A DNA stretch of 60,240 nucleotides from Fibrobacter sp. (GCA_024399065.1 JAKSIB010000020.1:1-60240); one strand, 5' to 3'; shown: positions 55,169 to 60,240, counted from the first letter of the stretch. Made by a program: numbers and translations. The notes: a model not told the origin generated them from the letters alone.

Positions 55169-56077
55169 TTATTTCTGCAGTGCAGCCAGCTGAGCCTTGA
55201 GGGCGGCATTTTCCGCCATAAGGCGTTGATTGTCAGCATCCTTTGCGACGAGGTCGGCATCCTTTCGTGCTAATCGCGCCTTGAGGTTGCGATTTTCACG
55301 TTCGCGGGCACGGCGTACGTCACCGGCGCTGACAAAGCCAAGCCTTTCTCCTAAACTCTTGAATGCCATGTTCAACCTCTCTAGTGCTTTTTCGGTGATG
55401 TACTCCCCCAAATATAACTTTATTTTTTTAACCAAGGTAGTCCCCTTCGTATTGTCCATTTTCTTGAACAGGGGCTCCATTGCAATCAACACTTTCGAAT
55501 AGGCCTTTGCATCGAAGGCATATTTCATGGTCATAAGTCCAATGGCCGCCTCGACTGATTCGCTCTGCCTTAAAAGATTATCGTTAAACTGTTTCAAATC
55601 CACGAAGGCGCATTCAAAAGGCAGTTCCCTCCCTTCAAAATCCCCATGAGGCTGTTTACGAAATTCTGCGAGAGGATCCCAGCTATCGGTGCCGTTATAA
55701 ATGATGATAGCCTTGGTTGGCAACCATTTGAACGTTGTGTTAGACTTGTCCACCATCACATTGAAAGCGTAACGGAAGGTTTGTTCCAGGACATTTACCT
55801 TGTGTTCTGATTTGTGTTCCAGCAGGATGCCAAAATAAAAAGGTTCACCGGTATTTGTTGTTGCCTTGAACGCAATGTCAGCTTCGCCACGTTCATCTAC
55901 ATTATCGTAGCGTTCAGAGATTTCCTCCAGTGTATCAAGGTTTACATTGTTCAAAATCCGCTTTACACTTCCGGAGCCTTTGGATAACGTGCGCAGCATG
56001 GCTCGTGCATTGGCGGGATCGCTATAGACGTACTTGAAGAATCCATCGTGATTACGCTTTGTTCTCTTTTTATTCAT
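55169..56077 (-). CDS. Rpn-type PD-(D/E)XK nuclease (transposase-like)
   Basis: A 302-residue protein of the Rpn/YhgA-like family (recombination-promoting nuclease, transposase_31). It opens NHDGFFKYVYSDPANARAMLR, has the catalytic pattern GEADIAFKA...FGILLEHKSEHK (Asp, then Glu-x-Lys), followed by YAFNVMVDKSN. The C-terminal 60 residues form a charged helix with repeats of KDADLVAKDADNQRL, likely a coiled coil. Rpn proteins are RecA-independent recombination nucleases often found in paralogous families. It neighbours the FISUMP locus. Confidence 0.88.
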   Translation of the reverse strand: MNKKRTKRNHDGFFKYVYSDPANARAMLRTLSKGSGSVKRILNNVNLDTLEEISERYDNVDERGEADIAFKATTNTGEPFYFGILLEHKSEHKVNVLEQTFRYAFNVMVDKSNTTFKWLPTKAIIIYNGTDSWDPLAEFRKQPHGDFEGRELPFECAFVDLKQFNDNLLRQSESVEAAIGLMTMKYAFDAKAYSKVLIAMEPLFKKMDNTKGTTLVKKIKLYLGEYITEKALERLNMAFKSLGERLGFVSAGDVRRARERENRNLKARLARKDADLVAKDADNQRLMAENAALKAQLAALQK

Positions 56078-56559: not shown

Positions 56560-56594
56560 AAAATGCCCCAGGAGTTGAAAATACCCTGGGGTTT
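56560..56594 (-). terminator. Terminator for the first FISUMP gene
   Basis: CCCCAGG / CCTGGGG stem (56566-56572 and 56585-56591); on the minus strand it is followed by CATTTTTTTAT. Transcripts from 56805 would run through the hairpin element before stopping here. Confidence 0.82.
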
Positions 56595-56595
56595 T

Positions 56596-56804
56596 GTTAC
56601 AAGGCCTTGCTTCGCTAGGCCATGGCTAAGATAGCGCAGTGCGCCTCCTTAGTTAGAGGGCGCAAGGCGCCTACGCTCATGCTCGGACGTATAGACAAAC
56701 AAGTTTGTCTATACGTCACTCGCTATCGCTTTAGTGGCACACAGTGCACAACAGTTCGGCTCACCTATACAGAAATGCAAGCATTTCTGTGCAGGATTCG
56801 CCTC
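56596..56804. repeat. Variable-hairpin element, copy 1 beside a FISUMP gene
   Basis: Contains GCGCA/TGCGC, GGCGC/GCGCC, a 15-bp stem with AA loop at about 56687-56718, CACAC/GTGCA and ACAGAAATGC/GCATTTCTGT. Skeleton motifs CGCCTCC(T)TAG, CGCTTTAG, GCTCGG and TCGGCTCAC recur as in the ppa-side element. The element ends at the FISUMP stop codon. Confidence 0.8.
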
Positions 56805-58526
56805 CTAGTTGTCCTGGAGACAACGCACCGAGCGTCCGCTGCCCTTGTCGTTGTAGTTGACGCTCGCGACGTAGTCGTTGATGTACAGGCTGTAGGCGCG
56901 GTTGCTATCGTACTCCGTAGAAGACCAAAAGCTGGTGTAGTCGTCCAAATCGTCGAACTTCTCGCTGCGGCTGTAGTAGTTGCCAGCAGGGAGAGCGGAA
57001 AAGCCGAACTTGTCCGACCCATTTTCCCAACTGCCCGCGCGCAGATTTTGGTATCTCTCATCTTGAGAGGAGCCCGCTGCAGCCAGGAGACTTTCAAGTT
57101 CCTCCTTACTGGGCAAGCGCCAGCCACTGGGACAAGCCATCTTTGCAGCCTCCCAGGTGTACAGGCGACCGTATTTTTTGCAGTTGGCAGGGTCATTGTC
57201 GTAGCACCAGCTATCTTTTGTTCCATAATTCAAGTTCTCAGCCATCCATGTCTTGCCATCGGGCATCTTCACTGTCTCGTAGGTCTTACCATCACGAGCA
57301 TCGGTTATTTTATCCCCGTTAGAGTCCCGGAAACAACGCACCGAGCCTCCGCCGTCCTTGACGTAGAAATTGACGTTCGCGCGGCTGTCGACGATGTCCA
57401 GGCTGTAGGCGTAGTAGTATCTATCGCGCTCCGTAGAAGCCCAAAAGCTGGTGACGTTGCCCAAATCGTGGAACTTCCTGTAGTCGCTGCGGTAGTCGCC
57501 AGCAGGGAGAGCGGAAAAGCCGAACTTGTCCGACCCATTTTCCCAACTGCGTGCGCGTAGATTTAGGGATCTTTCATCACCAGAGGTGCCCACTGCAGAC
57601 AGGAGACTTTCAAGATCTTCCTTACTGGGCAAGCGCCAGCCTGCAGGGCAAGCCTTTTTCGCTGCTCCCCAGGTGTACAGGCGACCGTATTTTTTGCAGT
57701 TGGCAGGGTCATTGTCGTAGCACCAGCTATCTTTTGTTCCATAATTCAAGTTCTCAGCCATCCATGTCTTGCCATCGGGCATCTTCACGGTCTTGTACGT
57801 TTTTCCATCGCGGGAATCTTTTAAAGTTCCGCTCGGTGGCTGCGCCTCCGAGCGCTGCGAGGACACTTCGTCCCCCTCGTTGGAGTCATTGGCTCTGTCA
57901 TCACGAATTTCTTCCTCAGTTTTCGAATTGCTTGCAGACTTCTTTATGCAACGGACCGAGAAGCCGTTTTTCTTTAAGGCGAACTTTATGTTTCCCTGAA
58001 AGAAATCGTCCGAATTCGAGCTTAGTACCCAATCGAAAGCACGAGAATCATCGCCTTCGGAGGAAGACCAAAGGTAGGCCGTTTCTCCCAGAAACTTGTA
58101 TGCATTCTTGATACGGTCGCCGGCGGCCTGGCCCGAAAAGCCAAAACGATCATCGTATTCAAGTGCGCCTTCAACGGACATATCAAAGGTTCGCCCCTTC
58201 AAAACGGAGCCGGCGTTCCCTTCCCCAACCTTGGACTCCACAAAGGATTTCAGTTCAGAAAAGTCTGAATTGTTGGGTAGCGACCAACCATCCGGGCAGG
58301 CATCCATTGCCGCATCCCAAGTGTACAGGCGGCCCATGCGTTTACAATTGCTTTCCTTGTTATCGTAGCACTTGCTCTCGCTGGTCTCATAATTCAAATT
58401 CTCGGCCATCCAAGTCTGATTACCGATTTCAACAGTCTTGTAGGTTTTACCGTCGCGGGAATCCTTAAGGGTTCCCGCCATGGTACATACGACTAGAGTG
58501 CATACAAGTATTAAGAATTTTCTCAT
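56805..58526 (-). CDS. Secreted protein with three FISUMP domains
   Basis: A 573-residue protein. Signal peptide about 1-18 (MRKFLILVCTLVVCTMAG), then three FISUMP (Fib_succ_major) domains at about 19-205, 233-400 and 405-573. Each domain has the pattern DGKTYKTV...TWMAENLNY, a Cys-Tyr-Asp-Asn...Cys pair, GRLYTW, GW-LP, FGFS-PAG, FWSSTE and SVRC. The fold is expected to be C-type-lectin-like and exposed at the cell surface. Domains 2 and 3 carry the NNC-codon hypervariable segment near their ends; domain 1 does not. Linkers are Ser/Glu-rich. The role is unknown; adhesion or ligand recognition is the likeliest. Confidence 0.88.
   Translation of the reverse strand: MRKFLILVCTLVVCTMAGTLKDSRDGKTYKTVEIGNQTWMAENLNYETSESKCYDNKESNCKRMGRLYTWDAAMDACPDGWSLPNNSDFSELKSFVESKVGEGNAGSVLKGRTFDMSVEGALEYDDRFGFSGQAAGDRIKNAYKFLGETAYLWSSSEGDDSRAFDWVLSSNSDDFFQGNIKFALKKNGFSVRCIKKSASNSKTEEEIRDDRANDSNEGDEVSSQRSEAQPPSGTLKDSRDGKTYKTVKMPDGKTWMAENLNYGTKDSWCYDNDPANCKKYGRLYTWGAAKKACPAGWRLPSKEDLESLLSAVGTSGDERSLNLRARSWENGSDKFGFSALPAGDYRSDYRKFHDLGNVTSFWASTERDRYYYAYSLDIVDSRANVNFYVKDGGGSVRCFRDSNGDKITDARDGKTYETVKMPDGKTWMAENLNYGTKDSWCYDNDPANCKKYGRLYTWEAAKMACPSGWRLPSKEELESLLAAAGSSQDERYQNLRAGSWENGSDKFGFSALPAGNYYSRSEKFDDLDDYTSFWSSTEYDSNRAYSLYINDYVASVNYNDKGSGRSVRCLQDN
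57152..57272 (-). repeat. 121-bp near-identical block (FISUMP domain 3)
   Basis: The block coding TVKMPDGKTWMAENLNYGT through GRLYTW is the same by eye at 57152-57272, 57668-57788 and 59103-59223, and is again entered at 60186 before the window ends. Neighbouring variable segments differ strongly. Confidence 0.85.
57668..57788 (-). repeat. 121-bp near-identical block (FISUMP domain 2)
   Basis: Second copy of the block at 57152-57272. Confidence 0.85.
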
Positions 58527-58555
58527 GTTCTAACCTTACGAGGAAATTTTCTCGG

Positions 58556-58770
58556 TAGTTACAAGGCTTTGCTTCGCTAAGCCTTGGCTAGGCTTTCCAC
58601 ATTCGGTGGATGCCTAGTTAGAGGGCGCCAAGGCGCCTACGCTCATGCTCGGACATATAGACAAACAAGTTTGTCTATGCGTCACTCGCTATCGCTTTAG
58701 TGGCACACAGTGCACAACAGTTCGGCTCACCTATACAGAAATGCAAGCATTTCTGTGCAGGATTCGCCTC
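58556..58770. repeat. Variable-hairpin element, copy 2 beside a FISUMP gene
   Basis: Nearly the same as 56596-56804, but the first hairpin is different: CCAC-ATTC-GGTGG replaces GCGCA-GTGCGC while the sequence on both sides (GGCTA.G, CTAGTTAGAGGGCGC) is kept. The rest (15-bp stem, CACACAGTGCAC, ACAGAAATGC/GCATTTCTGT) is shared. Confidence 0.82.
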
Positions 58771-60240
58771 CTAGTTGTCCTGGAGACAACGCACCGAGTA
58801 CTCGTCGCTCAGGTCGTAGGCGTAGTCGTCGACGTCCGCGCGGTATGCGGTGAGGTTCAGGCTGTAGGCGTGGTAGCTATCGTACTCCGTAGAAGTCCAA
58901 AAGCGGGTGCTGCCGCCCAAATCGTAGAACTTCTCGCTGTTGTGGCTGTAGCCAGCAGGGAGAGCGGAAAAGCCGAACATGTCCAACCCATCTTCCCAAC
59001 TGCGTGCACGTAGTCTTATTCCTTCCGCAATATCCAGGAGTCTTCCAAACTCATCCCTGCTAGGCAAGCGCCAGCCTGCAGGGCAAGCCTTTTTCGCTGC
59101 TTCCCAGGTGTACAGGCGACCGTATTTTTTGCAGTTGGCAGGGTCATTGTCGTAGCACCAGCTATCTTTTGTTCCATAATTCAAGTTCTCAGCCATCCAT
59201 GTCTTGCCATCGGGCATCTTCACGGTCTTGTACGTTTTTCCATCGCGGGAATCTTTTAAAGTTCCGCTCGGTGGCTGCGCCTTGGAGGAGTCCTGGAGAC
59301 AACGCACCGAGTAACCGTAGTACTTGGCGCGGTAGTTGACGCCCGCGCCGCCGTCGTAGATGCTCAGGCTGTAGGCGTCGAAGCTATTGCGCTCCGTAGA
59401 AGACCAAAAGTAGGTGTGGTCGCCCAAATCGCTGAACTCCTTGTGGATGCTGTAGTAGTTGCCAGCAGGGAGAGCGGAAAAGCCGAACTTGTCCAACCCA
59501 TTATCCCAACTGCGTGCACGTAGATTTGGAGAGCGTTCTGCCTCAGAGGTGTCCACGGCAAACTGGAGAATTTCAAGATCCTCCTCACTGGGCAAGCTCC
59601 AGCCAGCAGGGCATGCTTTTTTCGCATCATCCCAGGTGTACAAACGACCATATTTTTTGCAATTGCCTTCCTTGTTATCGTAGCAATAGCTCTCGCTGGT
59701 CTTGTAATTCAGGTTTTCAGCCATCCAGACTTGGTCGCCAATCTTCACGGTCTTGTACGTTTTTCCATCGCGGGAATCTTTTAAAGTTCCGCTCGATGGC
59801 TGCGCCTTGGAGCGCTGCGAGGACACTTCGTCCCCCTCGTTAGAGTCCTGGAGACAACGCACCGAGTAGCCGTAATTCTTAAAATTGTTGTCGACGCTCG
59901 CGTAGCCGTCGCTGATGTTCAGGTAGTAGGCAGCGGAGCTACCGCCCTTCGTAGAAGACCAAAAGTGGGTGTGGTAGCGCAAACTGCTGAACTCCTCGAT
60001 GTGGCTTTTGTATCTGCCAGCAGGGAGAGCGGAAAAGCCGAACTCGTCCGACCCATATTCCCAACTGCGTGCGCGTAGATTTAGAGAGCGTTCTGCCTTA
60101 GAGGTGCCCACGGTAGACTGGAGAATTTCAAGTTCCTTCTTACTGGGCAAGTGCCAGCCTGCAGGGCATGCATTCATTGCTGCCACCCAGGTGTACAGGC
60201 GACCGTATTTTTTGCAGTTGGCAGGGTCATTGTCGTAGCA
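58771..60240 (-). CDS. FISUMP protein with at least three complete domains (5' partial)
   Basis: The frame is open through the window end (CYDNDPANCKKYGRLYTW at the edge), so the N-terminus is missing. Three variable segments are visible (ending about 58798, 59310 and 59868), each preceded by the conserved FISUMP body; the domain nearest the window end lacks its beginning. Linkers contain SSQRSKAQPSSGTLKDSRDGKT. All three domains carry the NNC-codon hypervariable pattern. It ends with the same SVRCLQDN, stop and downstream hairpin element as the neighbouring gene, so the two genes arose by duplication. Confidence 0.87.
   Translation of the reverse strand, partial: CYDNDPANCKKYGRLYTWVAAMNACPAGWHLPSKKELEILQSTVGTSKAERSLNLRARSWEYGSDEFGFSALPAGRYKSHIEEFSSLRYHTHFWSSTKGGSSAAYYLNISDGYASVDNNFKNYGYSVRCLQDSNEGDEVSSQRSKAQPSSGTLKDSRDGKTYKTVKIGDQVWMAENLNYKTSESYCYDNKEGNCKKYGRLYTWDDAKKACPAGWSLPSEEDLEILQFAVDTSEAERSPNLRARSWDNGLDKFGFSALPAGNYYSIHKEFSDLGDHTYFWSSTERNSFDAYSLSIYDGGAGVNYRAKYYGYSVRCLQDSSKAQPPSGTLKDSRDGKTYKTVKMPDGKTWMAENLNYGTKDSWCYDNDPANCKKYGRLYTWEAAKKACPAGWRLPSRDEFGRLLDIAEGIRLRARSWEDGLDMFGFSALPAGYSHNSEKFYDLGGSTRFWTSTEYDSYHAYSLNLTAYRADVDDYAYDLSDEYSVRCLQDN
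59103..59223 (-). repeat. 121-bp near-identical block (second FISUMP gene)
   Basis: Third copy of the block at 57152-57272, in the neighbouring gene. Confidence 0.85.

Follow-up and report, generated by a model that had tools for sequence, protein, structure and literature searches.

Introduction

Fib_succ_major domains have been described as targets of diversity-generating retroelements (DGRs) in human microbiomes, where nine such proteins were reported (Ye 2014, PMC4159848, Table 2). Target genes with adenine-biased variable regions (VRs) but with neither reverse transcriptase (RT) nor template repeat (TR) have been found in Treponema denticola isolates and were read as leftovers of DGR loss (PMC4891356). 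Some of the DGR targets of Thiohalocapsa PB-PSB1 have multiple VRs, lying in tandem C-type-lectin domains, and trans diversification was proposed there (PMC10907252). DGRs of the Bordetella phage BPP-1 type require a hairpin located 4-34 bp after the VR (PMC3240598).

The FISUMP (Fib_succ_major) family is named after Fibrobacter succinogenes, and a proteomic study of the cell envelope of F. succinogenes S85 detected one FISUMP protein (PMC4619616). The literature searched contained no description of a DGR from Fibrobacter itself; global surveys may list some. Here we describe a 60,240-nucleotide stretch of DNA from Fibrobacter sp. (GCA_024399065.1, JAKSIB010000020.1:1-60240; hereafter the window), whose right end holds two FISUMP genes with hypervariable segments.

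Results

The window corresponds to contig C20 in an assembly (G000) of 3.82 Mb and 118 contigs, with an estimated completeness of 99.1%; the smallest contigs kept in it are 1,035 bp. Comparisons within the genus used 80 Fibrobacter genomes, one per species. Two minus-strand genes at the right end of the window encode secreted FISUMP proteins. Gene 1 (56805..58526, minus strand) encodes 573 amino acids in three FISUMP domains, the last two of which are variable (three TIGR02145 matches, E 1.4e-146; PF09603). Gene 2 (58771..60240, minus strand) is an open reading frame of 489 amino acids whose 5' end lies past the contig end; it contains at least three domains, all of them variable (three TIGR02145 matches, E 2e-132). 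The two proteins score 485 and 439 bits, where the model cut-off is 41.65, and so belong to the FISUMP/Fib_succ_major family (TIGR02145, PF09603), for which the genome has 74 domain matches. The structure of the variable domain was predicted with a pLDDT of 94.5. The top Foldseek match of the model was the Lcl CTD (probability 0.97), and VIA Z values were 8.2-9.6 with Lcl, Bd2740, and InvE, and 7.8 with FGE. The prediction places each VR at the C-terminal end of a FISUMP domain with a C-type-lectin fold.

The first-pass annotation had claimed five hypervariable segments running from the motif PAG to SVRC, two in gene 1 and three in gene 2, and all five were found where it had put them; the first domain of gene 1 has none. 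When one variable segment was used as a DNA query against the genome, it returned the other four, a further two where contig C42 begins, and weak partial matches, giving seven VRs in this genome. In five relatives (G034, G035, G033, G032, and G011) the far side of the window's locus shows synteny with C42, which places C42 and C20 on either side of an assembly gap within a single array.

Codons ending in C number 34/51 and 35/50 in the two segments of gene 1, exactly as had been counted by hand, and 30/50, 35/50, and 35/51 in those of gene 2. The first domain of gene 1 (57942..58433, minus strand), which is not a VR and served as an internal negative control, has 18 of 53. This non-variable domain recurs on C42, and the copy there shows no adenine bias against the TR of a sister genome, G030 (p = 0.17). 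Across 59 FISUMP segments of the genome the median C-ending fraction was 0.36; the seven VRs, at 0.60-0.70, occupied ranks 1-6 and 11. The C-ending codons that had been proposed as a footprint of diversification are thus indeed frequent in the VRs, but they are not diagnostic by themselves: a few other, non-VR FISUMP copies reach 0.62-0.66, and the C-ending share was rejected as a stand-alone test.

The sister genome G030 has a complete DGR, and its TR was the reference for comparison. A search for RTs across the genus had turned up RT genes that lie behind asparagine-rich open reading frames resembling FISUMP. On G030 contig C36 (L102) a FISUMP lipoprotein gene that has a single VR comes first, followed by a two-VR FISUMP gene, an Avd-like open reading frame, an AAC-rich TR, and the RT, with the template lying in frame with the RT reading frame. 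The sole NCBIfam match of the Avd-like frame was the DGR protein Avd (E 1.6e-4), a match too weak to reach the cut-off of that model. When the RT profile was searched against PDB sequences, the best match was 8ub7 (E 1.4e-42), which we take to be the RT of the Bordetella phage BPP-1 DGR; the next, a maturase, was at 1.3e-14, and group II intron RTs were far behind. Together with the motif GLPIGNLTSQ, which fits [IL]GxxxSQ, this best structure match would assign the G030 RT to the DGR clade on sequence grounds. Related RTs in genomes of Bacteroidales, Legionella, and Treponema mostly adjoin FISUMP-like C-terminal segments. The G030 DGR has the same FISUMP genes as the window (a lipoprotein gene and a tandem-domain gene), the same backbone, and the same domain edges. 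Unlike the window it is complete, with RT, avd, and TR, and at fixed positions its template does not agree with the backbone of the window VRs.

The G030 TR offers 70 adenine and 122 non-adenine sites. The annotation had predicted that, once aligned, substitutions would fall at template adenines, and among the seven VRs of this genome they are concentrated there: 59 of the 70 template-adenine columns are variable, versus 23 of the 122 non-adenine columns (p = 2.5e-19). Individually, each VR differs from the G030 TR at 29-42 of the 70 adenine sites and at 13-20 of the 122 others (p from 1.5e-5 to 6e-13). In the window, where all VRs lie on the minus strand, the terminal VR of gene 1, in its last domain (56811..57002), is 85% identical to the inferred template and has mismatches to the G030 TR at 29/70 adenine versus 16/122 non-adenine sites. 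The inner VR in the middle domain of the same gene (57324..57518; 37/70 versus 20/122) and the terminal VR in the last domain of gene 2 (58777..58971) also match the inferred template, the latter being identified by the G030 TR comparison as well. Mismatches number 35/70 versus 14/122 in the middle domain of gene 2 (59290..59481) and 32/70 versus 19/122 in the third domain from its 3' end (59845..60036). Across the VRs, codons that are AAC in the template have a nearly even first base (A in 43, C in 25, T in 36, and G in 35 cases), and their third base is C in 120 of 139. Variation in the VRs thus follows the adenines of a FISUMP-type template, and otherwise the VRs keep to a common backbone. 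For comparison, the three VRs of G030 differ from their own TR by 32 adenine and 2 non-adenine, 34 and 3, and 31 and 10 changes, a boundary codon accounting for one or two of the non-adenine changes in each.

Some features count against a DGR reading. With no TR or RT in this genome, the template had to come from another species, and it mismatches at 13-20 of 122 non-adenine sites, most of these differences being common to all seven VRs. In addition, private non-adenine changes occur at 0-7 of 117 sites per VR, and there are a few codon insertions or deletions among the VRs; plain DGR homing makes neither. The middle-domain VR of gene 2 is the cleanest copy, with 0 private changes, the terminal VR of gene 1 has 1, and the VR third from the 3' end of gene 2 is the most decayed, with 7. 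Judging from this range, some VRs have not been rewritten for a while.

Codon positions were compared between the VRs and a flank of 75 codons directly upstream of the VR in the seven domains. Pairwise difference rates at positions 1, 2, and 3 followed the usual order in the flank (0.130, 0.147, and 0.245), versus 0.437, 0.327, and 0.090 in the VR; overall, third-position divergence was 0.08-0.09 in VRs versus 0.25-0.26 in flanks. Variable third-position columns numbered 37/70 in the flank versus 12/50 in the VR in this genome (p = 0.002), and 44/70 versus 5/50 in G030 (p = 2e-9). The divergence pattern switches abruptly at FSALPAG, which is the 5' edge of the G030 template. In a recently duplicated pair, the middle domain of gene 2 and a C42 domain, whose flanks are the most similar, there were 19/225 differences in the flank versus 35/150 in the VR (p = 8e-5), and 30 of those 35 lay at template adenines. 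Silent sites of the VRs were thus homogenised after the domains had been duplicated, and high amino-acid divergence combined with low third-position divergence points to repeated copying of one template into all VRs. Ordinary selection or codon bias does not produce this contrast between VR and flank. At third positions, SufD of this genome differs from that of G035 at 45/348 (0.13), more than the VRs of this genome differ among themselves (0.08), so the last rewriting was not ancient. The adenine-directed variation proposed from the first look at the sequence is supported by these silent sites together with the independent G030 template.

About 20 nt 3' of the terminal VR of gene 1 lies an inverted repeat, ACAGAAATGC-TT-GCATTTCTGT (56769..56790, minus strand), a candidate target hairpin with a 9-bp stem and a 4-nt loop as folded (DNA fold z -3.3). 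The same inverted repeat follows the terminal VR of gene 2 (58735..58756, minus strand), where the downstream sequence is identical to that of gene 1. Terminal VRs across the genus usually have a hairpin 3' of them, with differing stem sequences. Hairpins also follow some ordinary, non-VR FISUMP genes, and a comparison of longest perfect stems with those at ordinary FISUMP gene ends was not discriminating. The hairpin was rejected as proof of a DGR target and stays a candidate feature. The inner VRs have no downstream hairpin, which also counts against the DGR reading.

The annotation had named the lack of a DGR RT and a matching template anywhere in the genome as contrary to its interpretation, and neither was found in this gapped assembly. 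No RT was recovered with RVT_1 (PF00078), with the G030 RT protein, or with a seven-member RT profile. An inferred 192-nt template retrieved the seven VRs and a weak partial match on C33, with no AAC-rich copy. The Avd protein of a relative found nothing in this genome at E values up to 10, and Avd is not present in every DGR. A second orphan was seen on contig C16 (6631-7212, L004), a FISUMP copy that matches the DGR template on contig C5 of G037 (37/69 adenine versus 8/108 non-adenine sites, p = 7e-12). Several other FISUMP copies of the genome show weaker, decayed versions of the template pattern. A phage-borne DGR was considered as direct source and rejected, the closest IMG/VR RTs having another template subtype (FPAG...SVRL); viral contigs yielded no exact match to the VR backbone motif.

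Among the eight closest relatives, as judged by SufD, four have a DGR RT (G037, G011, G040, and G030) and have no VRs at the window's locus. In the other four no RT was detected, and three of them (G035, G033, and G034) have VRs at that locus. Apart from this genome, four close relatives have VRs of this kind and no detected RT. At the position of the window itself none of the relatives has an RT, and for that reason a direct pattern of DGR loss there could not be shown. Relic cassettes were found elsewhere. On contig C1 of G037 a VR gene is accompanied by a 255-amino-acid Avd-like gene and no RT, and an unmutated first half of the template is fused to an ordinary FISUMP end; contig C26 of G032 has VRs and an Avd-like frame, again with no RT. 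Intact DGRs with FISUMP templates and RT-less relic cassettes thus both occur in sister species, and the RT-less cassettes fit real loss of the RT with its targets left behind.

Discussion

The five segments in the window are very probably VRs of a DGR target array whose DGR has most likely been lost from the strain. The best reading of the data is that the array has outlived its DGR, or is served by a DGR absent from this strain; it is genuine, was used recently, and is by now apparently orphaned. A DGR of the G030 type, with RT, Avd, and an AAC-rich template, would have copied its template with random bases placed at adenines, and the mutated copies would have homed into the VRs of genes 1 and 2. 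Such a DGR would have acted in trans, from elsewhere in the genome, since VRs with no RT are present at the locus in the sister genomes whose assemblies run through it unbroken. Subsequent loss of RT, TR, and Avd in this strain would have left a fixed set of variants slowly gathering ordinary mutations.

The first alternative is that a working DGR is still present, with RT, TR, and Avd in the gap between C42:1 and C20:60240 or in an unassembled piece, and that the array is being diversified today. The gap falls within the array, with near-identical FISUMP sequence on both sides, VR genes of the same kind directly adjoin avd, TR, and RT in G030, and one VR has no private non-adenine change. We nevertheless consider this unlikely. 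G035, G034, and G033 are contiguous at the locus and have no RT there; a unique 2-kb cassette is unlikely to drop out of an assembly in which contigs down to 1,035 bp were kept; and the assemblies of G032 and G034, each estimated as 99% complete, likewise have VRs with no detected RT. Real loss of the three components, as opposed to an assembly gap, is most likely.

Gene conversion among paralogous VRs might yield a uniform backbone with shuffled variants and no reverse transcription, and the repeats are indeed near-identical. Variable codons are, however, unlinked between VRs: save for one borderline pair, with a common run of four variable codons that is the longest (p = 0.05 within this genome), runs are no longer than chance (p = 0.5 across the clade). 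Conversion moves existing blocks and does not place all four bases at single sites with neighbouring C's spared, and we regard it as highly improbable. Duplication followed by strong diversifying selection on a binding surface, with C-endings from codon bias, could appeal to the size of this paralogous family and to the few other copies rich in C-ending codons, but it is strongly disfavoured, and hardly credible, since codon bias should affect both halves of the domain, differences track the adenines of an independent template, and the genus contains intact DGRs whose templates match.

The proteins of the array are probably surface-exposed binding proteins, and the envelope finding in S85 fits surface display. 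If part of FISUMP is or was diversified by DGRs, its domains most likely form variable binding or adhesion surfaces, which would bear on attachment in the rumen, whether the partner is plant fibre, another cell, or a phage. The clade also offers a natural series of DGR life histories, with an intact cassette, a cassette that has lost its RT, and bare orphan targets in close species. A tentative and rather doubtful extension is that the array has long served as a docking site: DGR cassettes would come and go in the Fibrobacter population, each rewriting several tandem VRs in trans, including the inner ones with no hairpin, and the array would store a fixed multi-specific repertoire once the enzyme is lost. 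Strain-variable cassettes of this kind would resemble those of T. denticola.

FISUMP targets, RT-less targets, and targets with multiple VRs have each been documented already, and what is new is their occurrence in this organism. The DGRs of Ye 2014 share with the window the PF09603/TIGR02145 target domain, adenine-specific variation, and lipoprotein or secreted targets; they have RT and TR, whereas the window, from Fibrobacter, has several VRs per target and neither RT nor TR. The T. denticola genes are alike in having adenine-biased VRs with no core DGR. In the window, unlike in T. denticola, the leftovers form a tandem array, and sister species contain relic cassettes with avd and half a TR from which the RT is gone. 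The multi-VR targets of Thiohalocapsa are proteins of conflict systems, and their own genome also encodes RTs, in contrast to the FISUMP surface proteins described here, for which no RT was found. The prototype DGR of Bordetella phage BPP-1 shows the same logic of RT, Avd, TR, and VR, a C-type-lectin fold, and a hairpin after the VR (PMC3240598); it is phage-borne, complete, and active, with one VR, whereas the window holds chromosomal targets only.

Variable regions and reverse transcriptases at the array locus

The locus from SufD to C42:2828, which runs from the window into a second contig (C42) facing it across an assembly gap, was compared among nine genomes. In this small sample, variable regions (VRs) were found there only in the window's genome (G000) and three other Fibrobacter genomes (G033, G034 and G035), all without a detected reverse transcriptase (RT); four close relatives carrying an RT had no VRs at this locus. 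A Transposase_31/Rpn-family (PD-(D/E)XK-like) gene (55169-56077) lies between the VR array and SufD, and the diversity-generating retroelement (DGR) of G030 is also flanked by a gene resembling it in kind and length.

Long similar sequences follow gene 1 (56580-56815) and gene 2 (58560-58770), and contain several perfect inverted repeats, for example TAGACAAACTTGTTTGTCTA. Immediately 3' of the C42 VRs is a CCACC-GAA-GGTGG-like hairpin; in the window the two downstream sequences stand between the VR and such a hairpin. They look like inserted repeat elements.

A further orphan VR and a relic cassette

A FISUMP copy on another G000 contig (L004, C16:6631-7212) matches the DGR template of G037:C5, with mismatches at 37 of 69 A sites and 8 of 108 non-A sites. 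By this pattern it is an additional orphan VR of G000, fitting a different template from the window VRs. The cassette at L346:3673-5479 (G037:C1) is a relic DGR: a VR gene is followed by an Avd-like gene, and after these comes a template's 5' half, free of mutations and joined to the 3' half of an ordinary FISUMP. The cassette lacks an RT.

Comparison with other DGRs

In several Fibrobacter DGRs (L102:15102-16478 and L110-L112) the template and RT ORF share one open frame, so that the RT reading frame extends back through the template. One Fibrobacter genome, G011, holds four DGR-type RTs with differing templates (L103-L106). DGRs are also present on putative phage contigs from IMG/VR (L225-L236; RT identity 53-64%), where the templates are mostly of a second FISUMP-like subtype, FPAG...SVRL.
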